Assembly (NCBI GenBank): GCA_028288485.1
Contig: JAQBNO010000172.1
Coordinates: forward strand, 1 to 39,834
Direction: 5' to 3'
Length of the DNA stretch: 39,834 nt
From: Segetibacter sp.
GTDB lineage: Bacteria; Bacteroidota; Bacteroidia; Chitinophagales; Chitinophagaceae
Shown here: positions 1-17,920 of the stretch, one piece after another
Layout: each line of letters starts with the position of its first letter
Position numbering within the stretch: the stretch's first letter is position 1
Notes under the pieces: model-generated
The model's input: the letters and a program-made list of their open reading frames with translations, nothing else
Database searches by the model: none
What the model was told of the DNA's origin: nothing
Program-made: the position numbers and the translations under genes

Positions 1-576
1 GCGGTAAAACTGCAGGAAGCAATCCAAAAAAGACTCGAACAAAAGCACGTCACTATTCGTCCCATCAATGTAAAGGACTTTAAGAACGAGGTGTCTAAGG
101 TAAGAGAGATCTATAATTCGGCGTGGGACAAGAATTTAGGATTTGTTCCGATGACCGAAAAAGAATTTAACTACCTGGCAAAGGATCTTAAGATGATATT
201 GGACCCTGATTTTTGCCTCGTTGCCGAACATGAGGGAAAAATGGTCGGTTTTGCCCTGGCAGTACCCGATATAAACCAGGTACAGATAAAAATAAAAAAA
301 GGAAGACTACTGCCAACTGGCATTTTCAAACTGCTATTTGGCCGTAAGAAAATAAACTATGTTCGCATTATTACTTTAGGTGTAATAGAGGCTTACCGAA
401 AAATGGGAATTGAAGCCTGCTTTTATGCCAGGATTATTAAAACCGGTGCAGAAAAAGGGATTAATGCGGGTGAAGCATCATGGATACTTGAAACCAACGA
501 AATGATGAACAAAGGGCTTCAGAACATTAATGGTAAAGTTTATAAGACTTACCGCATTTATGAAAAAGCAATATGA
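1..576 (+). CDS. GNAT-fold N-acyltransferase, C-terminal part (candidate bacterial ceramide synthase); 5' end outside window
   Basis: The reading frame is open from base 1, so this is the last 191 residues of a longer protein. The GTG at 91 is internal, because coding similarity starts before it. The visible part is a GNAT-like domain. It carries the block IYNSAW followed by PDINQ and then LGVIEAYRKMGIEA, an acyl-CoA-binding-loop-like segment. The same blocks occur in the complete 388-residue protein at 16754-17920 (IYNLAW, PDLNQ, FGIVPKFQGLGIDA), so the two are paralogues. The stop overlaps the start of the SDR gene (ATGA), implying translational coupling. In Caulobacter a GNAT-type acyltransferase (bCerS) and an SDR (CerR) make ceramide. 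The pairing here, upstream of inositol-lipid genes, suggests N-acylation of a sphingoid base. That role is inference; the GNAT fold and paralogy are seen. Confidence 0.72.
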   Translation, partial: AVKLQEAIQKRLEQKHVTIRPINVKDFKNEVSKVREIYNSAWDKNLGFVPMTEKEFNYLAKDLKMILDPDFCLVAEHEGKMVGFALAVPDINQVQIKIKKGRLLPTGIFKLLFGRKKINYVRIITLGVIEAYRKMGIEACFYARIIKTGAEKGINAGEASWILETNEMMNKGLQNINGKVYKTYRIYEKAI

Positions 577-1562
577 AGCAAAAGGTCCTGATTACGGGAG
601 CCAGCGGTTTTGTCGGCTTTCATTTAATTGAAGCAGCACTGGCAAAAGGTTTAGATGTATATGCAGCGGTACGAAAAAGCAGCGATGTAAAACATTTGAT
701 TTCGCACAATGTTAAGTATGTATATCCTGATTTTACCAGTGTTGAAAGCCTGGAAAAAGAGCTGAAAGAAAAGCAATATGATTTTATTATCCACGCCGCC
801 GGAACTACTAAAGCAAAAAACCAGGACGAATACAATAAGGTAAACGCCGGCTATTCTGTTAATCTTGCAAAGGCAGCAGCAAATCATGGATCAGGGCTTC
901 AAAAAATGGTATTTCTCAGCAGCCTTGCCTCTATTGGCCCATCAAAACAATCTAACGAATTAATCAAAGAAAATAAAACGCCCGAGCCTGTTACAGCTTA
1001 TGGAGTAAGCAAATTATTGGCTGAAGAAAAATTAAAAGAGCTGAATCTTCCTTTAATCGTTTTTCGGCCCACAGCAGTATACGGCGCAAGAGAAAAAGAC
1101 ATCTTTATCATACTAAAGACTTTCAGCCAGGGATTTGAACCTTACATTGGAAGAAATGAACAAGAATTAAGCTTTGTTTATGTAAAAGACCTCGCAGCTC
1201 TAACGATTAATAGTTTATTTACTGGTGATACCGCCAATGGTACTTATAATATTACTGATGGTAATTGCTACAGCCGGTACGATATGGCAAACATTACGAA
1301 GAATGTTTTAAGTAAAAAAACATTAAAAGTTCATCTGCCACTGCCGGTAGTAAAGGCTATCGCAGTAGTGCTGGAAAAAGGATATGGAATATTTGATAAA
1401 ATTCCGGCTCTAAATCTTGAAAAGCTAAATGAGCTGAACGCGGTTAACTGGTGCTGTGACATTGAAAAAGCAAGAAAGGAATTGGGCTTCAACCCTGCTT
1501 ATAACCTCCAGCAAGGATTAAAAGAGGCGCTGGAATGGTATAAACTGAATAAATGGATTTAA
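573..1562 (+). CDS. Extended short-chain dehydrogenase/NAD-dependent epimerase family (candidate ceramide reductase CerR)
   Basis: A 329-residue extended SDR. The NAD(P)-binding glycine motif TGASGFVG lies at residues 8-15, the HAAGTT strand at about 74-79, a serine cluster FLSSLAS at 114-120, and the catalytic pair Y143-x3-K147 (YGVSK). FRPTAVYG follows, typical of the epimerase/dehydratase (atypical SDR) group. The start overlaps the upstream stop by ATGA and the stop overlaps the start of the next gene, so it sits inside a tightly coupled operon. Known relatives of this type reduce the 3-oxo group of 3-ketosphinganine or 3-oxo-ceramide in Caulobacter and Bacteroides. Next to a GNAT acyltransferase and inositol-lipid genes, that substrate is the best inference. 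A nucleotide-sugar epimerase is the main alternative. Family certain, substrate moderate. Confidence 0.8.
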   Translation: MKQKVLITGASGFVGFHLIEAALAKGLDVYAAVRKSSDVKHLISHNVKYVYPDFTSVESLEKELKEKQYDFIIHAAGTTKAKNQDEYNKVNAGYSVNLAKAAANHGSGLQKMVFLSSLASIGPSKQSNELIKENKTPEPVTAYGVSKLLAEEKLKELNLPLIVFRPTAVYGAREKDIFIILKTFSQGFEPYIGRNEQELSFVYVKDLAALTINSLFTGDTANGTYNITDGNCYSRYDMANITKNVLSKKTLKVHLPLPVVKAIAVVLEKGYGIFDKIPALNLEKLNELNAVNWCCDIEKARKELGFNPAYNLQQGLKEALEWYKLNKWI

Positions 1563-2017
1563 TGATAAAGCTGCATAAGCTTATAGCGACTGTTTTCGGA
1601 ATTGGCTACATGGGAAAAGGTGGAGGAACTATAGCTGCAGTTGTATGTTGTTTATTATGGATTTTAATTCCTCCCGGTGATAATATTTATTATTGGCAAG
1701 CATCAATAACCATTTTGGTTTGCTGTTTGGGTACGTGGTCAGGAAATGAAGTGGATGCCATTTGGGGCAAAGACAGCAGTAAAGTAGTTATTGATGAGGT
1801 AGCCGGAATGATGATCACCCTGATCTTTTTGCCGGCGACCCTAAAATATGTGCTGACCGGGTTAATCCTGTTCCGGTTTTTTGATATAGCTAAGCCGCTG
1901 TTTATTAGAAAAATGGAAATGTTGCCGAAAGGATGGGGAGTTATGGCCGACGATATTCTTGCTGGTATTTATGCCCACGTGTTGCTGAAAATAATAGTAG
2001 ATTATCATATTTTTTAA
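1553..2017 (+). CDS. pgpA: Phosphatidylglycerophosphatase A family membrane phosphatase (candidate phosphatidylinositol-phosphate phosphatase)
   Basis: A 154-residue PgpA-family protein of normal length. It has the family landmarks: N-terminal GIGYMGKGGGT, the acidic KDSSKVVIDEVAGM block around residues 75-88, LFRFFDIAKP around 105-114, and MADDILAGIYAHV near the C-terminus. Three or four hydrophobic segments place it in the inner membrane. Two starts are possible: ATG 1553, which overlaps the SDR gene by 10 bp, or ATG 1562, which forms a TAATG junction with its stop like the one seen at 7444. PgpA enzymes dephosphorylate phosphatidylglycerophosphate. In Bacteroidota inositol-lipid clusters, a PgpA-like enzyme is thought to dephosphorylate phosphatidylinositol phosphate. 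The candidate synthase of that lipid is encoded at 5550, which favours the second role, but housekeeping PgpA activity is not excluded. Confidence 0.85.
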   Translation: MDLMIKLHKLIATVFGIGYMGKGGGTIAAVVCCLLWILIPPGDNIYYWQASITILVCCLGTWSGNEVDAIWGKDSSKVVIDEVAGMMITLIFLPATLKYVLTGLILFRFFDIAKPLFIRKMEMLPKGWGVMADDILAGIYAHVLLKIIVDYHIF

Positions 2018-2239
2018 AAGCAGGTTGAAAATTACCATTCAGAAGTTGATTGAGCCGCTGGAATTTATTTCGTATCTGGATCAACTAACGATAATTAGTT
2101 TTACCCCGGAATAAGAAGAAACCGTTAATTGCGTTATTACATTATAGCAATATGAAAGGCATTACAAACCATAATTAGTAAAGCAAGCTACTGTTACCGG
2201 CCCATTTGGGGACCAGCAACATTTCTTCTTGCAACTTTC

Positions 2240-2259
2240 GTTGTGTCACTCACTTCTAC
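2240..2259 (-). repeat. Dispersed intergenic repeat, copy A
   Basis: Plus-strand GTTGTGTCACTCACTTCTAC. The reverse complement is close to GTACAAGTGAGTGACACAAC at 31890-31909. Confidence 0.7.
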
Positions 2260-2447
2260 CCTATCTTTTCATGGCGGCCCTGCTTAGGTTCGAGTTCAAA
2301 CACCGGGGATAGTTAAGATTGGTTTTGGGTCGACGGAAATGTGATTTAAATAAGTGGTAAATGATGTGTTTAAGACAAAGGCAGAAGGTAGCCCGAAAGA
2401 GCTTTTATACAATTAACTCGTGTAACCGTTTCATATTATAACCAATA

Positions 2448-2467
2448 GTTAAACGGAGCGTCGCAAC
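2448..2467 (+). repeat. Dispersed intergenic repeat, variant module, copy B
   Basis: GTTAAACGGAGCGTCGCAAC is identical over 20 bases to 16689-16708. In both places a GCTGGCAA motif follows within about 40 bp. Confidence 0.8.
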
Positions 2468-2613
2468 GATGATGCCTGTCCGGACTGAAAGCTGGCAACA
2501 TAAAAGTTTCTATACAGTGAGATGGACCTGAAAATACCGGCGAAACCGTAACTGGTATTCAAAGTAAAAAATGAATTCAAAAGCTTCAACAGAAGGCACA
2601 ATGTAACAGTAAA

Positions 2614-2991
2614 ATGCTCACTTTTTTAAAGGCTAATATATCTTCTTCGATTGCTTCACTTATTGATTATCTCGTAACTATCTTTTTAGTAACTTTTTTT
2701 CAGGTAGATGTTGTTATTGCCAGCACTACCGGAACAATCTGTGGAGGAGTATTAAACTTTTTAATCGGTAGAAACTGGGTTTTTCAGTCAAAAAAAAGGA
2801 AGGTGCATCAGCAGGCAGTACGATATGGAATAGTGTGGGTGGGTAATTTATTCTTGAATACAGGTGGTATGTACCTCTTAACAAAAGTGCTTAAAGTACA
2901 TTTTATTCCTGCGAAAATATCCGTATCGTTACTTGTAGGTTTTGGCTACAACTATACATTGCAGAAAAGATATGTTTTTAAAAATAATTAA
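2614..2991 (+). CDS. GtrA family small membrane protein
   Basis: A 125-residue protein with four predicted membrane segments, the size and layout of the GtrA/DPMS family (PF04138). Landmarks are SSSIASLIDYLVTIFLV at the N-terminus, the GTICGGVLNFLIGRNWVF block (conserved N-F-x2-x-R-x-W-V-F) at about residues 46-63, and the C-terminal YNYTLQKRYVF. GtrA proteins are proposed to move or deliver polyprenyl-linked sugars across the inner membrane. No glycosyltransferase lies beside it; its partners are lipid headgroup enzymes, so a role in flipping a lipid intermediate is possible but unproven. It is the first gene after the 596-bp gap, and its stop is 3 bp before the DUF5686 start, implying co-transcription. 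Confidence 0.88.
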   Translation: MLTFLKANISSSIASLIDYLVTIFLVTFFQVDVVIASTTGTICGGVLNFLIGRNWVFQSKKRKVHQQAVRYGIVWVGNLFLNTGGMYLLTKVLKVHFIPAKISVSLLVGFGYNYTLQKRYVFKNN

Positions 2992-2994
2992 ATA

Positions 2995-5544
2995 ATGAAA
3001 TTGATAACTTGCAGATACACTTTTGTGTTGTTGCTGTTGTTATGTTCATCTATTACATCTTATTCCCAAACTATTGTGAAAGGTGTGATTATGGATGCAA
3101 CAACGAAACAGCCATTACAATCTGCCAGTGTTTATTTTAAAGGAGGCAAAGGTGTAACAAGCGCTGAAGACGGCAGTTATATTTTAATTACCAATAACGC
3201 CAGAATGTCGGTAGTTCAGTTTTCCCATGTGGGTTATAAAACGATTAGTAAAACGGTGGCGCCTAACAGGGAACACGTAGTTGATATAAGCCTGGAGCTG
3301 GCAGACGCAAAGGTTAACGTTGTAGTAAAAACGAATAAAAGAGGAAAATACTCCAATAAAAATAATCCTGCAGTAGAATTAATAAAGCAGGTAATTGAAA
3401 ATAAAAGCAAAAACCGGATTTCCTCCTACGACTACGTTTCGTACGAACAGTATGAAAAAATGGAGCTCCTACTGTCAAAAACCCCGGAAAAACTACTCAA
3501 TAACCCGCTTTTAAAGAATTTTAAATTCATTTTTGAAAACAACGATACCACAAAAATTCAAGGGCGGGCAATGCTGCCTGTTTACCTAGATGAGACCTTA
3601 TCTCGAAAGTATTACCGGAAGAACCCGGAGAAGAACAAAACTTATATTCTGGCTGATAAAAAAGTAAACTTTGGAGAATACCTGGATATTGAAGGAGTAA
3701 GTGCTTACTTAGATCGCTTATACGAAGATGTAGATGTTTACGAAAATAATATTTCATTGCTGCAAAACCAATTTTTGAGCCCTATTTCTGATATGGCTCC
3801 AACTTTTTACAGGTTCTATATTGCCGATACCATAGAGCTGGAAGGAACTAAACTGGTGCGTTTAAACTTTGCTCCCAAAAACTTGAATGACCTGCTTTTC
3901 AAAGGAACCCTTTTTGTTTCCCTCGACGGCCTGTTTTCGGTTCAAAGAGTTATTATGAGCATTAGCAAACACGCCAATCTAAATTTTGTTCGTGAACTTA
4001 AAGTGAACCAGGACTTTGAAAAAGGGCCCGATGGCCGCTATCACTTAATCATGAGTAATACAGTGGTGGAATTTGCACTGACACCGGGTGCAAAGAACGG
4101 TATTGTAGGAGAACGAACTGTATCGATGAAAACGTTTACAATTAATCAGCCTGGCCCTGATAGTGTCTACCAAGGTGAAGCAGTCGTACGTTTAAATGCA
4201 AAAACCAGCGAGTCTGACGAATTCTGGATAAAGAACAGGTCGCCGCAATTATCTGAAGCCGAGGCAAAAGTTTATTCTAATATCGACAGTCTGAAAACGA
4301 TGCGGTCGTTCAAATCTTTTATGAACATGGCTACCTTGTTACTGGCCGGATATAAAAGTTTCGACGCATATGAAGTAGGGCCCCTTAATGCTTTTTACAG
4401 TTTTAATCCCGTTGAGGGTTTGAGAATGAGACTTGGAGGAAGAACAACTCCTAAATTCAGTTCGCGAATTTACCTGGAAAATTATTTTGCGTACGGCTTT
4501 AAAGATGAAAAATGGAAATACTATGCTGCCGCGGCGTATTCATTTAACCGGTCGTCTATCTATGCTTATCCTCTTAATTACCTTAAAGTAAGTTACCAGT
4601 ACGACACTAAAATTCCGGGCCAGGAATTGCAGTTTGTTGTAGAGGACAACTTTTTACTTTCTTTTAAAAGGGGCAAAAACGACAAGTGGTTGTATAATAA
4701 TATTTTGAAAACAGAATATGTAAAAGAATTCGGGAAAGACTTTTCATACAGCCTGGGGTTCAAAAACTGGAAGCAAACGCCTGCAGGTGTCATCACCTAT
4801 GTTAAACCCGACGGTGCAGGTTTGAAAACTATTCCCTATGTTACAACAAGCGAACTTTCGGCAGAGATAACCTGGTCTCCTCATCGCCAGTTTTACCAGG
4901 GTAAAAGGTTTAGAGTTCCTATTCAAAACAAATACCCTGTTTTTAACCTGAGGTATTTAGCAGGTATGAAAGGGCTGGTAAATGGAGAGTATGACTACCA
5001 CAATCTGAACCTGCGGGTGCAAAAAAGGTTTTATTTATCGCAATTGGGTTTTTCAGACGTTGTTCTCGAAGGAACTTATATTTTTGGGGCAATTCCTTAT
5101 CCTTTAATGACAATACACAGGGCTAACCAAACATTTTCTTACCAGTTAAATTCTTACAACCTTATGAATTTTATGGAATTTGTAAGTGATCATTCGGCAG
5201 GCTTAAATATTGATCATAAGTTCAATGGATTTTTCTTTAATAAGATCCCTTTGTTTAAGCATTTAAAGCTGCGGGAAGTAGTTTCAGGAAAAATCCTGTA
5301 CGGAGGAGTAAGAAAGGAAAATAATCCTGAATTTAATTCCTCTACCTTTAAATTCCCGGTAGATATCGAAAATGGTTTACCCACTACCTACACTTTAAAC
5401 AAAACCCCTTATATTGAAGTTAGTGCGGGGATCATGAACATTTTTAAAATGGTAAGGGTAGATTTCGTAAAAAGGCTAACCTATCTCAATCATCCGGAAG
5501 TAACGGAATGGGGAATCAGGACAAGAGTAAAAATGGATTTTTAA
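2995..5544 (+). CDS. DUF5686 outer-membrane protein with carboxypeptidase-regulatory-like N-terminal domain
   Basis: An 849-residue exported protein. Residues 1-25 form a signal peptide ending TSYSQ. Residues about 28-105 are a carboxypeptidase-regulatory-like beta-sandwich (VKGVIMDATTKQPLQSASV, then FSHVGYKT). The remainder fits DUF5686: a periplasmic-looking segment followed by many amphipathic beta strands, ending in RVKMDF with the terminal phenylalanine typical of outer-membrane barrels. The start lies 3 bp after the GtrA stop. The family is common in Bacteroidota and its function is not established. Its position between inositol-lipid genes is consistent with handling lipid or envelope material at the outer membrane, but that is inference from context only. 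Confidence 0.85.
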   Translation: MKLITCRYTFVLLLLLCSSITSYSQTIVKGVIMDATTKQPLQSASVYFKGGKGVTSAEDGSYILITNNARMSVVQFSHVGYKTISKTVAPNREHVVDISLELADAKVNVVVKTNKRGKYSNKNNPAVELIKQVIENKSKNRISSYDYVSYEQYEKMELLLSKTPEKLLNNPLLKNFKFIFENNDTTKIQGRAMLPVYLDETLSRKYYRKNPEKNKTYILADKKVNFGEYLDIEGVSAYLDRLYEDVDVYENNISLLQNQFLSPISDMAPTFYRFYIADTIELEGTKLVRLNFAPKNLNDLLFKGTLFVSLDGLFSVQRVIMSISKHANLNFVRELKVNQDFEKGPDGRYHLIMSNTVVEFALTPGAKNGIVGERTVSMKTFTINQPGPDSVYQGEAVVRLNAKTSESDEFWIKNRSPQLSEAEAKVYSNIDSLKTMRSFKSFMNMATLLLAGYKSFDAYEVGPLNAFYSFNPVEGLRMRLGGRTTPKFSSRIYLENYFAYGFKDEKWKYYAAAAYSFNRSSIYAYPLNYLKVSYQYDTKIPGQELQFVVEDNFLLSFKRGKNDKWLYNNILKTEYVKEFGKDFSYSLGFKNWKQTPAGVITYVKPDGAGLKTIPYVTTSELSAEITWSPHRQFYQGKRFRVPIQNKYPVFNLRYLAGMKGLVNGEYDYHNLNLRVQKRFYLSQLGFSDVVLEGTYIFGAIPYPLMTIHRANQTFSYQLNSYNLMNFMEFVSDHSAGLNIDHKFNGFFFNKIPLFKHLKLREVVSGKILYGGVRKENNPEFNSSTFKFPVDIENGLPTTYTLNKTPYIEVSAGIMNIFKMVRVDFVKRLTYLNHPEVTEWGIRTRVKMDF

Positions 5545-5549
5545 AAATT

Positions 5550-6266
5550 ATGGCAAATCAATTATTAAGAGATAGACTACAGAAACGGATTTATAAAATT
5601 ATTGATCCTTTGGTAAAAGGATTGATAAAAATGGGACTTACACCCAACGCTGTTACTACTATAGGGTTATTGATGAATATTGGAGTTGCGGTTATATTTA
5701 TCATAGGGGCAGAAAGAGGACACAGGGGTGATTTGTCTTATATTGGCTGGGCAGGAGCCTTAGTGCTGTTTGCCGGCTTATTTGACATGCTCGACGGGCA
5801 AGTTGCACGGCTAGGAAATATGAGTTCTACTTTTGGTGCCCTGTTCGATTCAGTCTTAGACCGTTATAGTGAATCCGTGATGTTTTTAGGAATCTGTTAT
5901 TATCTTGTCGGCCACCATTATTTCATTAGTTCAATCTTTGCTTTTATAGCCTTAATTGGTTCTATGATGGTAAGTTACACCCGTGCACGAAGCGAAGGGC
6001 TGGGATTTCAAAATAAGGGCGGGCTGATGCAAAGACCGGAAAGAGTAGTTTTAGTAGGCGTTTCCGCGATAGCATGTGGCCTTACAGCAAATATTATTGG
6101 AGGTGATTATAAATTGTTTATCCCCGGAATTCGCTATCATGTTTTTGAAACCATGTCGATATTTACCATACCCATTACCGGCATGGCCATCTTAACCAAT
6201 ATTACAGCATTTAAAAGGTTATACGACGCAAAAAAAACACTGGATAAAAAGGATAAAAACCTGTAA
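5550..6266 (+). CDS. CDP-alcohol phosphatidyltransferase (candidate phosphatidylinositol-phosphate synthase)
   Basis: A 238-residue integral membrane enzyme. The complete CDP-alcohol phosphotransferase signature is present with exact spacing: D79-x2-D82-G83-x2-A86-R87-x8-G96-x3-D100-x3-D104. These acidic residues bind the divalent metals and CDP. A longer frame reaches back to 5508 inside the DUF5686 gene, but ATG 5550 lies 5 bp after that stop and gives MANQLLRDRLQKRIY, a typical amphipathic N-terminus, so it is preferred. The reaction joins a CDP-activated lipid to an alcohol or alcohol phosphate. In Bacteroidota inositol-lipid clusters this family makes phosphatidylinositol phosphate from CDP-diacylglycerol and inositol phosphate. 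The PgpA-like and AUR1-like neighbours support that. Phosphatidylglycerophosphate synthase is the alternative. Confidence 0.87.
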   Translation: MANQLLRDRLQKRIYKIIDPLVKGLIKMGLTPNAVTTIGLLMNIGVAVIFIIGAERGHRGDLSYIGWAGALVLFAGLFDMLDGQVARLGNMSSTFGALFDSVLDRYSESVMFLGICYYLVGHHYFISSIFAFIALIGSMMVSYTRARSEGLGFQNKGGLMQRPERVVLVGVSAIACGLTANIIGGDYKLFIPGIRYHVFETMSIFTIPITGMAILTNITAFKRLYDAKKTLDKKDKNL

Positions 6267-6803
6267 ATGGGAGGATTAAATTTGCAAAAAACATGGCTAC
6301 TGCTGCTGATCTCGTCGCTCAGCCATACTTTGTTTGCACAGGATAAATATCCGACACCCGCTGGTAATCCGAAGCAGCTGTTTTATTTACAGAGAAACTG
6401 GAACACAAATACCATCGTTTGTGAACTTAATGCAAAAGATGGTATTTTAGACGCTGAAGATCCCGTAAAAGTTTTCTGGATCAGGTACGATGAAAATGGC
6501 CAAAAAGAAGATCTTAGTTTTATCCAGAAGAAGTTTGCATATGGGATGAAAACTACTTTGCTGGAAAAAGACAAGTATGAAATGCGATTTGTTTCGTACA
6601 AAAACTTCCCCATGTATCTGATGAAAGGAAACAATAATAAGTTCAACGTTTATGCAACAATTAATAAAAAAATGGCTATACTACAACGTATCTTTATCAA
6701 GTTGAACGGAGGAACCGTGTGGGCGCCAAAAGTAGAATATTTTGAAGTAAAAGGAATCGATACAGCTACCGGAAAAGAAGTAGTTGAAAGATTGAAAATA
6801 TAG
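6267..6803 (+). CDS. DUF4833 domain secreted protein
   Basis: A 178-residue protein with an N-terminal signal peptide (a hydrophobic stretch ending TLFAQ, about residues 1-25). The mature part fits DUF4833: YPTPAGNPKQLFYLQRNWNTN, then DPVKVFWIRYDENGQKEDLS and IQKKFAYGMKT, ending in a beta-rich region. No catalytic motif is evident. Its ATG directly follows the stop of the phosphatidyltransferase gene with no spacer, so the two are likely translated together. From memory, DUF4833 proteins also occur in the inositol-lipid cluster of Bacteroides. The repeated association with lipid synthases suggests a periplasmic role in this pathway, such as binding or presenting an inositol-lipid intermediate. 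The biochemical function is unknown to me. Confidence 0.78.
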   Translation: MGGLNLQKTWLLLLISSLSHTLFAQDKYPTPAGNPKQLFYLQRNWNTNTIVCELNAKDGILDAEDPVKVFWIRYDENGQKEDLSFIQKKFAYGMKTTLLEKDKYEMRFVSYKNFPMYLMKGNNNKFNVYATINKKMAILQRIFIKLNGGTVWAPKVEYFEVKGIDTATGKEVVERLKI

Positions 6804-6823
6804 TATTTGTAAAAGTGTTTGTT

Positions 6824-7444
6824 ATGAAGAAGAATTATATTTCCAACTCGTCAGAGTCATCAAGAATGTTCAAAAACGACTTTTTAGAAAGTCTTTCTAA
6901 AATTCATTTTGCAGTACCCCTATTTATTTACGTGCCTGTTGTTATCTTTTATACATACCTGGCAATTGTAAATCATGTCAGTTTCCTTGCTTATATTGGC
7001 TATTTTGCCTTTGGAGTGTTGGTTTGGTCTGCCACCGAATATGTTTTGCACCGCTATATATTTCATTATGTTCCAACATCTAAATGGGGATTAAGAATTC
7101 ATTTCATTTTCCACGGGGTTCACCATGATTTTCCAAGGGACTCTAAAAGACTGGTAATGGTGCCTTCGGTGAGTATTCCATTGGCATTTGCGTTTTACTT
7201 TTTGTTTTCGTTATTCCTAAGCGATACCCATCTTTATTCATTTTTCTCTGGTTTTCTTGTTGGCTACCTGGCTTATGACATGACTCATTATGCCATTCAT
7301 CACGCCAATTTTAAAAGTCCCTTCTGGAAAAAAATTAAACAACATCACATGCTTCATCATTATGATGACCCTACAAAAGGTTATGGTGTAAGTTCGGTGT
7401 TGTGGGATAAAATTTTAGACTCAGATTTTCCAAAGAAAAAATAA
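6824..7444 (+). CDS. FA2H/Scs7-type fatty acid hydroxylase (sterol desaturase superfamily)
   Basis: A 206-residue di-iron membrane hydroxylase with three to four membrane segments. The histidine clusters are all present: H76RYIFH81, H93-x3-H97-x2-H100H101, H155-x3-H159H160 and H174H175-x2-H178H179. The surrounding sequence (EYVLHRYIFH, FHGVHHDFPRDSKRL, YDMTHYAIHH, HHMLHHYDDP) is that of the sphingolipid fatty-acid 2-hydroxylases FA2H and Scs7, without their cytochrome b5 domain. ATG 6824 is preferred over the in-frame GTG at 6815. The stop forms a TAATG overlap with the next gene, an AUR1-like synthase. The likely product is a 2-hydroxylated N-acyl chain on ceramide; substrate is inferred, family is clear. 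Confidence 0.88.
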   Translation: MKKNYISNSSESSRMFKNDFLESLSKIHFAVPLFIYVPVVIFYTYLAIVNHVSFLAYIGYFAFGVLVWSATEYVLHRYIFHYVPTSKWGLRIHFIFHGVHHDFPRDSKRLVMVPSVSIPLAFAFYFLFSLFLSDTHLYSFFSGFLVGYLAYDMTHYAIHHANFKSPFWKKIKQHHMLHHYDDPTKGYGVSSVLWDKILDSDFPKKK

Positions 7445-8394
7445 TGTTGCAACCGGCTAAAACGGCATCTACTTATACAGGGTTATTTGCAAAAAAAAAT
7501 CTTCTTTTCACTACTGCCGTATCGTTATCGTACCTGCTGTTGGCTAAAGTATTAATAGGCTTTAAACCTGAGCAGCTATTTTTAGTATTTCTTTTTAATG
7601 CACTGTATTACGCTTCCTTTCCTACGCGAAAGTTTATTACGGGCTTTTCCGTTTATATTGTTTTTTGGATCTTATTCGATTCAATGAAGGCTTTTCCGAA
7701 CTACCTGTATAATACGGTTCATATTGAGAGCCTTTATAATGCCGAAAAATATCTTTTTGGCATCAACACAGGAAACGTTGTCCTTACGCCCAACGAATTC
7801 TGGCAGCGCCATACATATACTTTCTTAGATATTATCAGCGGCATTTTTTACCTATGCTGGGTTCCAGTGCCGTTGATCTTTGCAACCTATTTGTTCTTTA
7901 CCAACCGCCGAAAGCAGTTTATGTATTTTTCTCTTACGTTCCTGTTTGTAAACATTATCGGTTTTATTGGATACTATATTTATCCCGCTGCTCCACCGTG
8001 GTATGTTCAGCAGTATGGCTTCCAGTTCGAGGCACACACACCCGGAAATACCGCGGGCCTTCATCGCTTCGACGCCTTTTTTAACGCAGGAATTTTTCAT
8101 GCACTATATGCTAAAAGTTCAAATGTTTTTGCAGCTATGCCGTCTTTACACTCTGCTTATCCTGTAATTACTTTGTATTATGGTTTAAAAAACCGGCTCG
8201 GATGGGTTAATATTATTTTTGCAATCGTTATGATTGGAATATGGTTTGCAGCTATATATAGTGGTCATCATTATGTACTCGATGTACTGGCGGGCATAGC
8301 CTGTGCATTTATTGGAATCTTCATCTTTAAAAAATTTATTGTTCCAAATAAAAGGTTCCAGGCCCTTTTCATTGACAAGTTCGTCAACAATTAA
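7444..8394 (+). CDS. PAP2-superfamily inositol phosphorylceramide synthase, AUR1-like
   Basis: A 316-residue polytopic membrane protein of the AUR1/inositolphosphotransferase branch of the PAP2 superfamily. Diagnostic blocks are YPAAPPWY at residues 180-187, AAMPSLHSAYP around 230-240 with catalytic H236, and SGHHYVLDVLAG around 273-284 with a GHH-x3-D (H275/H276, D280). These supply the His-His-Asp triad described for yeast Aur1. Residues 110-127 (NVVLTPNEFWQRHTYTF) and 130-140 also look like the bacterial Aur1-type family. The predicted reaction transfers phosphoinositol from phosphatidylinositol to ceramide, at the periplasmic face of the inner membrane. It is the last gene of the + strand locus and is translationally coupled (TAATG) to the hydroxylase. 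A generic PAP2 phosphatase is less likely given the YPxAPPWY motif. Confidence 0.85.
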   Translation: MLQPAKTASTYTGLFAKKNLLFTTAVSLSYLLLAKVLIGFKPEQLFLVFLFNALYYASFPTRKFITGFSVYIVFWILFDSMKAFPNYLYNTVHIESLYNAEKYLFGINTGNVVLTPNEFWQRHTYTFLDIISGIFYLCWVPVPLIFATYLFFTNRRKQFMYFSLTFLFVNIIGFIGYYIYPAAPPWYVQQYGFQFEAHTPGNTAGLHRFDAFFNAGIFHALYAKSSNVFAAMPSLHSAYPVITLYYGLKNRLGWVNIIFAIVMIGIWFAAIYSGHHYVLDVLAGIACAFIGIFIFKKFIVPNKRFQALFIDKFVNN

Positions 8395-16753: not shown

Positions 16754-17920
16754 TTAAGCTACTACCGGGTGGCGTTCAAACGGACGATCTTTGTCGAAAA
16801 CATACCGGTAAGTTACCATACGCCTGCTTTGTGTACCCCCCAGGGCTTTATAAATTCCCACCATCCTGGGATTCCAATCCCCGGCCCAACCCATTTCTAT
16901 TAGGTCGTAACGTCCTTTTTTCCTAATTAGCAGGGTGCCGGAATAAATCATAAAAGCATCGATTCCCAAACCCTGGAACTTTGGAACGATGCCAAAAGCA
17001 ACACCGTTAATTTTACGGCTGTGCTTTGTTTTTTGAAGCCACAGTAACCATAGTTTTTGCAACAAGCCGAACCTGCCATTGAAATATTTAAAATACTGGT
17101 TTAAATCAGGAATGTTCACCCACATGCCAATAGGATCGCCTTTATAATAAGCAAACCAAACGAGGCTTTCATCCATGACAGGCTTCATCTTGTTAAACAG
17201 TTTCAGCGCTGCTTCGTAACTGATTTCTTTACCCTCGTTGTGTTGCGCCCAGGCCAGGTTATAAATAGTCGAAAAATCTTTAGCATACTTTGGAAGGTTT
17301 CCTTTCTCAACGTGGCGGGCAGAATAATCAGGCTTCGATGCAAACTTTGCATGACGCTCTTTGTATTTGTCGCTCAATGTTCCGTAAACAGCAAGTGTAT
17401 AATAATACTGGTTATAAAAATTCCGGAAACCATATTTTTCGAAAAGGCTTTCGTAATAGCTGGGATTAAATGAGATGCCGTACAATGGCTCTTCGTCGAA
17501 ACCTTCCACCATCAGTCCCCACCACTTGTCCCTTTCTCCAAAATTAACAGGCCCATCCATTGCTTCCATGCTATTTTCAGCAAGCCAAATTTTTGCAGTG
17601 TCAAATAAAAGGTTAGCAGCAGCCTGGTCGTTTATGCAATCAAAAAAACCACAGGAACCAACCGGAAAAGTGTCGCCTTTATTGATGTATTTTGTACTCA
17701 CGTAGGCTGCAATGCGGCCGATGAGGTTCCCGTCACTGTCCTTTAAGATCCACCTTTTTGCGGTACCATACTTAAATGCTTTGTTCTTTGTGGGGTCAAA
17801 CACATCGTTCACTTCGTTATCGATCGGCTGAATGTATTTCGGGTTATGTTTATTCATCAGCACGTTCACCTTAATAAAGTCTTTGGCGGCAGATCTGTCA
17901 GTTACTTCAATGATGAACAT
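16754..17920 (-). CDS. GNAT-fold N-acyltransferase family protein, paralogue of the gene at 1-576
   Basis: A complete 388-residue protein. The N-terminal half contains KYIQPIDNEVNDVFDPTKN, then GRIAAYVS, and DGPVNFGERDKWWGLMVEGF, followed by PLYGISFNPSYYESLFEKYGF. The C-terminal half is a second GNAT-like domain with IYNLAW, GDPIGMWVNIPDLNQ and FGIVPKFQGLGIDAFMIYSG. The C-terminal half matches the visible part of the gene at 1-576 block by block, so they share ancestry. Relatives are often annotated only as hypothetical. If the gene at the window start is a ceramide synthase, this may be a second acyltransferase with a different acyl donor or amine. The gene overlaps the upstream AI-2E permease gene by 14 bp, implying coupled expression. 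Confidence 0.75.
   Translation of the reverse strand: MFIIEVTDRSAAKDFIKVNVLMNKHNPKYIQPIDNEVNDVFDPTKNKAFKYGTAKRWILKDSDGNLIGRIAAYVSTKYINKGDTFPVGSCGFFDCINDQAAANLLFDTAKIWLAENSMEAMDGPVNFGERDKWWGLMVEGFDEEPLYGISFNPSYYESLFEKYGFRNFYNQYYYTLAVYGTLSDKYKERHAKFASKPDYSARHVEKGNLPKYAKDFSTIYNLAWAQHNEGKEISYEAALKLFNKMKPVMDESLVWFAYYKGDPIGMWVNIPDLNQYFKYFNGRFGLLQKLWLLWLQKTKHSRKINGVAFGIVPKFQGLGIDAFMIYSGTLLIRKKGRYDLIEMGWAGDWNPRMVGIYKALGGTQSRRMVTYRYVFDKDRPFERHPVVA

Follow-up and report, generated by a model that had tools for sequence, protein, structure and literature searches.

A predicted sphingolipid operon for 2-hydroxy-dihydroceramide phosphoinositol in a Segetibacter-like bacterium

Can a single bacterial gene row carry the whole route to a hydroxylated, inositol-headed sphingolipid? 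The question is raised by a locus at one end of the window, by which we mean the entire 39,834-nucleotide contig C73 of a 6.4-Mb assembly in 220 contigs, from a soil bacterium that appears to be a Segetibacter-like member of the Chitinophagaceae. Nine proteins are encoded on the plus strand of positions 1-8394 (Table 1). An earlier reading made from the letters alone (the sequence-only reading) had named six of them, a GNAT N-acyltransferase, a short-chain dehydrogenase/reductase (SDR), a PgpA-type phosphatase, a CDP-alcohol transferase, an FA2H-type hydroxylase and an AUR1-type synthase, and had proposed that they make 2-hydroxylated inositol phosphorylceramide (IPC). Pfam matches place all six where it had put them, and the CDP-alcohol transferase motif that it had called perfectly spaced, DxxDGxxARx8GxxxDxxxD, is complete in the translation. 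Three further genes, encoding GtrA-family, DUF5686 and DUF4833 proteins, had been overlooked.

We consider it probable that the row is a sphingolipid operon for 2-hydroxy-dihydroceramide phosphoinositol, which in this strain would most likely be made with salvaged inositol. From the genes, their homologies, overlaps and neighbourhood we infer the enzyme activities, the order of steps, the hydroxylation site and the head group as follows. Serine palmitoyltransferase (SPT) would condense serine with acyl-CoA, the GNAT would add the N-acyl chain and the SDR would reduce the 3-keto group. The FA2H-type enzyme would hydroxylate the N-acyl chain in an O2-dependent reaction, most likely at C-2. Phosphatidylinositol-phosphate synthase (PIPS) would join CDP-diacylglycerol and inositol phosphate, the PgpA-like phosphatase would convert the product to phosphatidylinositol (PI), and the AUR1-type enzyme would transfer phosphoinositol from PI to ceramide. 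GtrA, DUF5686 and DUF4833 may have helper roles, possibly in transport to the outer membrane. Inositol or inositol phosphate would have to be taken up or salvaged, since the strain has no recognisable myo-inositol-phosphate synthase (MIPS).

The comparisons covered ten genus genomes (the window's own and G001-G009), a phylum sample of 296 genomes, each at least 90% complete, and 80 named loci, the best of 534 confirmed AUR1 matches in a scan of genome contigs. Seventy of the 80 loci extend 9.5 kb or more upstream of AUR1 and form a well-covered subset. In all locus counts, related species are non-independent draws. Among these best 80 of 534, the window's AUR1 is closest to those of a Segetibacter metagenome-assembled genome and Segetibacter aerophilus (74-75% identity). 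Published work is cited from extracts of the papers.

Ceramide genes across the contig edge

The first base of the window is a contig edge within the GNAT gene, and the sequence-only reading had pointed to the DNA upstream as the place for an SPT. Indeed, one lies there. Contig C72 (L006) ends with genes for a TetR-like regulator and an SPT and then roughly 225 initial codons of the window GNAT, and its last 127 bases are exactly the first 127 bases of the window. This overlap and the shared GNAT, of whose approximately 374 residues the window holds 191, put the SPT directly upstream. It scores 738.9 bits on the SPT equivalog NF047600 (cut-off, 640), overlaps the GNAT gene by 4 nucleotides, and has 3a2b and 8guh as its nearest solved SPTs. 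The TetR-like call is by likeness to the counterpart in G006, none of whose NCBIfam matches reaches its cut-off.

An SPT-like enzyme beside a GNAT could instead use cysteate, with the GNAT N-acylating capnine, in a sulfonolipid (capnine-type) operon. In other Bacteroidota, GNAT relatives do stand beside SPT-like genes that miss the SPT cut-off, where a sulfonolipid role is a guess. In contrast, the enzyme here clears that cut-off, and in the PDB search it matched 3a2b at E 7.5e-178 versus 1.7e-71 for the cysteate acyltransferase 28eh. Moreover, we know of no role for PIPS and AUR1 in sulfonolipids. We reject this alternative as very improbable.

The sub-cut-off genes lie directly beside GNAT relatives on G075 C9, G079 C19, G094 C4, G110 C6, G133 C8 and G314 C21; these pairs, in other Bacteroidota families, are possibly sulfonolipid loci.

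Our stand-in for bCerS was a Roseomonas marmotae gene (L069; annotation, dATP pyrophosphohydrolase) that has a pair of LptF/LptG genes on its upstream side and a nucleotidyltransferase gene downstream. The Caulobacter cerS gene, CC_1154, has CC_1156 and CC_1155 (the second LptF, and LptG) as neighbours (PMC11324152). The full-length G006 GNAT is 32% identical to the stand-in over 378 residues (E 2.9e-67), compared with E 1.8e-34 for a second GNAT of the window (GNAT2). Searched against the window's own genome, the stand-in finds the operon GNAT first, at 120.5 and 92.1 bits for the two contig pieces, and GNAT2 at 91.9. Conversely, a profile of operon GNATs gives the stand-in 245.6 bits and the paralogue GNAT2 146.8. 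These scores support the operon GNAT as a bCerS, by way of the R. marmotae stand-in rather than the Caulobacter sequence itself. Seven genomes of the phylum sample have a GNAT of at least 590 bits; all seven were among the 65 of the 296 that were examined for SPT, and in 7/7 an SPT above cut-off is immediately adjacent. No bCerS-like GNAT was found in the fetched stretch of Roseomonas mucosa (L068), and neither a GNAT nor an SDR is annotated near the Bacteroides finegoldii SPT locus.

GNAT2 itself (16754-17920, minus strand, 388 residues) is a second full-length GNAT, beside an AI-2E transporter gene. It is 22% identical to the operon GNAT over 144 residues, and no Pfam family matches it up to E 0.01. 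Because comparably low-scoring matches occur in genomes without an SPT above cut-off, it may be a general Bacteroidota acyltransferase.

For CerR the stand-in was an R. mucosa SDR encoded behind a fatty acyl-AMP ligase (L068). It is 22% identical to the operon SDR over 325 residues (E 5.2e-17), and in the window's own genome it finds the window SDR first (E 6.5e-13; next, 5.6e-7). The window SDR is a candidate CerR. Its sequence opens directly with the Rossmann motif, so the protein looks cytosolic, and inspection by eye shows no signal peptide.

The hydroxylase, its neighbours and the inositol-lipid core

In a PDB search up to E 1, the FA2H-type protein matched Scs7 entries only. Of the 13 histidine columns of Scs7, eleven are histidine in all 51 operon FA2Hs (the window's plus those of 50 named loci), one in 50/51 and the thirteenth in none. 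The Pfam scan found no cytochrome b5 domain in the window hydroxylase. The hydroxylated position of the N-acyl chain would most likely be C-2. A different target, the long-chain base at C-4 in the manner of Sur2 or another lipid, would make the product phytoceramide-type. PF04116 is a broad family that includes Sur2 and desaturases as well. Against this, no solved structure other than Scs7 was matched and the Scs7 stretch HG-x-HH-x-x-P-x-D-x-x-RLV is retained, in a comparison without Sur2 sequences. We judge this alternative unlikely and keep N-acyl hydroxylation as the preferred reading.

A tree of 77 FA2H rows placed 56 operon rows on one side of a branch with support 90/95 (90% of 200 bootstraps). 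Nine short operon loci (L010-L018) had been dropped beforehand; five of them returned as longer stretches (L051, L053-L056), and two genus-mates returned as L101 and L105. On the other side of the branch are 20 non-operon homologues, with the yeast row on a long branch among them. The 3.6-kb surroundings of these 20 hold no operon gene except one GNAT2-like gene (L030) and one distant SDR (L024). A single operon row, G027, has no AUR1 nearby: its genes run SPT-GNAT-SDR-MIPS-DUF5686-DUF4833-FA2H, and PIPS, PgpA and AUR1 are not in the 20-kb stretch, the only one searched. Because FA2H tracks the ceramide genes and is retained in this stretch, the hydroxylase would seem to go with ceramide making rather than head-group transfer. 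Such a row stands at L054 (941-10359), where the ceramide genes are followed by MIPS, DUF5686, DUF4833 and FA2H and where PIPS, PgpA and AUR1 are lacking; it offers a natural variant for probing the FA2H substrate.

The arrangement is widespread among relatives. In 35 of the 80 named loci, again the best 80 of 534, SPT, GNAT, SDR, PgpA, PIPS, FA2H and AUR1 occur together, and 31 of the 35 have MIPS too. Counted singly, PIPS is present in 79, PgpA in 69, MIPS in 64, SPT in 53, SDR in 52, GNAT in 51 and FA2H in 50; the families include Chitinophagaceae, Sphingobacteriaceae and Cytophagales-type bacteria. FA2H adjoins AUR1 in 50/50 FA2H-bearing loci, at spacings of -121 to +32 nucleotides, the negative values stemming partly from longest-start calls. 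In the well-covered subset, FA2H accompanies a ceramide gene in 46 loci and never occurs without one, and 15 loci have neither. In the phylum sample, a close AUR1 (E below 1e-90) occurs in nine genomes, the window's own included, and five of the other eight have FA2H at the locus (L181, L182, L184, L186, L187).

The inositol-lipid core is recognisable as well. PIPS scores 400.2 bits on NF052561, the BT_1523 equivalog (cut-off, 350). The PgpA-like protein scores 61.6 bits on the PgpA equivalog NF008288 and does not reach its cut-off of 226, which fits a phosphatidylinositol phosphate (PIP) phosphatase and proves nothing. The AUR1-type family profile matches the solved yeast AUR1 (9vj3) at E 1.3e-19, and H236, H275/H276 and D280, presumably the catalytic triad, are conserved. 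The DUF5686 protein is BT_1527-like by description and is probably located in the outer membrane.

A PDB search with DUF4833 gave no relative up to E 1. Of the 79 PIPS frames in the named loci (best 80 of 534), 35 are fused to it and 33 have it as a separate gene of the locus, and this company ties it to PIP or IPC synthesis; the locus thus indicates DUF4833 as a PIP synthase partner. Examples of the fusion are at L051 9305-10606 and L055 8540-9853, the latter confirmed by Pfam.

The source of inositol and the weight of the evidence

The sequence-only reading had also proposed that MIPS be sought in the DNA upstream. None was found anywhere in the window's own assembly with PF07994 and PF01658, while the controls matched. 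Its description of a sphingolipid locus stands insofar as genes for ceramide formation, hydroxylation and inositol-phosphoryl transfer lie side by side; its inositol head group is weakened by the missing MIPS. FA2H is present in 5/10 genus genomes (the window's own, G005, G006, G008 and G009), and among these only G006 has MIPS, inside the operon; none was found in the other four (G008 is 88% complete). Conversely, G002 and G003 have MIPS and no FA2H. In G006 and other relatives MIPS lies between SDR and PgpA, the same two genes that overlap in the window. Named loci from Pedobacter and Dyadobacter without an operon MIPS (L115, L119, L144, L147, L174) have a lower-scoring one elsewhere in the genome, in a genome-wide test of such loci that left out L179.

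With MIPS lost, PIPS and the AUR1-type enzyme might handle another polyol phosphate, so that the head group here would not be inositol. Four of the five FA2H-bearing genus genomes lack a detectable MIPS, as this alternative would have it. In contrast, the window's PIPS is above the BT_1523 equivalog cut-off and is 85% identical to the PIPS of the MIPS-bearing G006. We think such a change of head group improbable, and an inositol head group remains our reading.

A possible source of inositol appears in three of the four FA2H-bearing genus genomes without MIPS. In G005, G008 and G009 a gene for PI-specific phospholipase C (PI-PLC; PF16670; PDB 5fyo, E 4.6e-37) is convergent behind AUR1 (L048 6864-7793; L049 1676-2602; L050 15273-16199); the other seven genus genomes, the window's own included, have no PI-PLC match. 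Among named species, Segetibacter aerophilus has the operon and a PI-PLC and no MIPS, Foetidibacter luteolus is MIPS-bearing, and Pedobacter nutrimenti has its MIPS at a site outside the operon. Inositol salvage by this enzyme is a guess. Going further, the Segetibacter lineage might have cleanly lost inositol synthesis from the operon and scavenge inositol or its phosphate from the lipids of others, three siblings by means of PI-PLC. We offer this as a tentative idea, rather less likely to be right than wrong. If true, the membrane sphingolipid head group of this lineage would be borrowed from the surroundings.

Several observations weigh against a hydroxylated IPC operon as proposed. Neither MIPS nor PI-PLC was found in the window's own genome, in searches that covered these two enzymes, which leaves its source of inositol without an explanation. 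Absence of MIPS also extends beyond Segetibacter, since the AUR1-bearing Spirosoma arboris (L178) and G304 have none either. The AUR1-type protein scores 347.4 bits on NF052609 (phosphoinositol dihydroceramide synthase) and does not reach the cut-off of 480. As to the ceramide genes, GNAT-family matches occur in 287/296 genomes of the phylum sample (E 1e-10), so presence alone is little informative; among the 65 genomes tested, 3/10 with an SPT above cut-off (G013, G285, G293) have no close GNAT; and the operon-SDR profile gives the CerR stand-in 73.5 bits, inside the 66-85 range of other SDRs. Nor is the row constant. Ceramide genes occur without FA2H in 9/70 well-covered loci, and FA2H is missing from the locus in 3/8 other close-AUR1 genomes (L183, L185, L188). 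The operon is split into two pieces on one contig in G010, a stretch of G024 has SPT and MIPS without GNAT or SDR, and DUF4833 is absent in either form from 11/79 PIPS loci. The named loci, moreover, are skewed toward close relatives. According to the extract of PMC9246714, Sphingobacterium makes IPC though homologues of the cluster are absent or highly infrequent there, so another IPC route must exist.

The loci of S. arboris (L178) and G304 (L185) hold PIPS and PgpA without SPT, GNAT, SDR or FA2H.

Gene coupling and comparison with known systems

Table 1. Features at positions 1-8394 of the window
Feature	Position	Strand	Evidence
GNAT-type N-acyltransferase (bCerS-like), C-terminal 191 aa	1..576	+	PF00583, marginally above cut-off (21.9 bits; cut-off, 20.7)
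Extended SDR, candidate 3-ketosphinganine/3-keto-ceramide reductase (CerR-like)	573..1562	+	Pfam Epimerase-type 7.9e-32
PgpA-family phosphatase, candidate PIP phosphatase (BT_1525-like)	1553..2017	+	PF04608 E 8.7e-38
ORF-free stretch, 596 nt	2018..2613	.	no open reading frame (ORF) >=80 aa
GtrA-family membrane protein (BT_1524-like)	2614..2991	+	PF04138 E 9.5e-20
DUF5686 protein with CarboxypepD_reg domain, 849 aa	2995..5544	+	PF18939 E 1e-49
Phosphatidylinositol-phosphate synthase (PIPS)	5550..6266	+	NF052561, CDP-OH_P_transf 1.5e-17, PDB 6h53 E 7.9e-23
DUF4833 protein, signal-peptide-like start	6267..6803	+	Pfam
FA2H/Scs7-type hydroxylase	6824..7444	+	FA_hydroxylase 9.9e-18; PDB 4zr1 E 2e-33
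AUR1-type inositol phosphorylceramide synthase, PAP2 superfamily	7444..8394	+	PAP2_3 3.6e-23; NF052609 347.4 bits

The sequence-only reading had described the genes as packed nearly without gaps. The tight coupling holds: GNAT and SDR overlap by 4 nucleotides, SDR and PgpA overlap, and FA2H and AUR1 share 1 nucleotide. Alternative starts are an ATG at 1562 for the PgpA-like gene and a GTG at 6815 for the FA2H-type gene. These overlaps suggest a single transcript across the row. The description of near gaplessness fails at the stretch behind the PgpA-like gene, which at a threshold of 80 residues is free of ORFs and might contain a further promoter. The comparison made there turned up no remnant of MIPS or any other protein of the operon, and the window has no Rfam match. 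In the four operon-bearing genus-mates the counterpart of the gap is about 400-500 nucleotides long. A block of about 30 nucleotides at 2445-2477 also stands ahead of gtrA in G008, G009 and G005 (92.6-96.9% identity), and might be a control site, such as an additional promoter. The gap segment 2224-2268 resembles two other sites in L049 (86% over 36 nucleotides) and is perhaps a dispersed repeat.

How does this row compare with characterized systems? A literature search by title and abstract, with most subscription journals outside its scope, found no published description of the combined operon. Sphingobacterium IPC has a 2-hydroxy form. Sphingobacterium spiritivorum and Myxococcus xanthus are known producers of IPC (PMC9246714). 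Like the yeast Scs7/FA2H enzymes and their myxobacterial homologues, the hydroxylase belongs to the same sequence family and has its histidine boxes; functional FA2H homologues in myxobacteria are reported in a review citing Ring 2009 (PMC10002949). Unlike Scs7/FA2H, it has no cytochrome b5 domain by Pfam and is set in a sphingolipid operon, which links an Scs7-type hydroxylase to bacterial IPC genes.

As in the spt/cerR/bcerS system of Caulobacter, the row combines an SPT and an SDR with a GNAT that is a homologue of the syntenic bCerS reference. In the extract of PMC11324152, however, cerS never shares an operon with spt and cerR, whereas the SPT, GNAT and SDR genes overlap here. Caulobacter CerR is reported to be periplasmic (PMC11087976); the SDR here has no export signal by eye. 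Again unlike Caulobacter, no acyl carrier protein or acyl-ACP synthetase was recognised among the ORFs here, without a dedicated search. The extract of PMC11334938, citing its reference 38, states that spt, bcerS and cerR are not close together in sphingolipid-producing Bacteroidota. If the GNAT and SDR are indeed bCerS and CerR, the published separation of these genes (PMC11334938, PMC11324152) fails for the present genomes. With these genes at one locus, the row also offers targets in culturable bacteria at which the disputed order of steps in bacterial ceramide synthesis can be probed.

The closest likeness is to BT_1522-BT_1526 of Bacteroides thetaiotaomicron, with an AUR1-like enzyme, PIPS, GtrA, a PgpA-like protein and a carboxypeptidase-regulatory-like neighbour, BT_1527, and with MIPS in relatives (PMC9246714, PMC8791184). 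Mutants in BT_1522, BT_1523, BT_1525 or BT_1526 lose IPC, and all except the BT_1522 mutant also lose PI; mutation of BT_1524 (GtrA) has no or partial effect, and BT_1525 was undeletable in one of two studies (PMC9246714, PMC8791184). These phenotypes fit, and so support, the roles proposed here for the core genes. The row would extend the inositol-lipid cluster to Bacteroidota genera unlisted in the extract of the larger 2022 survey (PMC9246714). Unlike the Bacteroides cluster, it has SPT, GNAT, SDR, FA2H and DUF4833 in line, MIPS is missing, and AUR1 falls below the BT_1522-type cut-off. By homology, then, the locus reads as a BT_1522-1526-type inositol-lipid cluster with ceramide genes and a hydroxylase added, and what appears to be new is their combination in one row.

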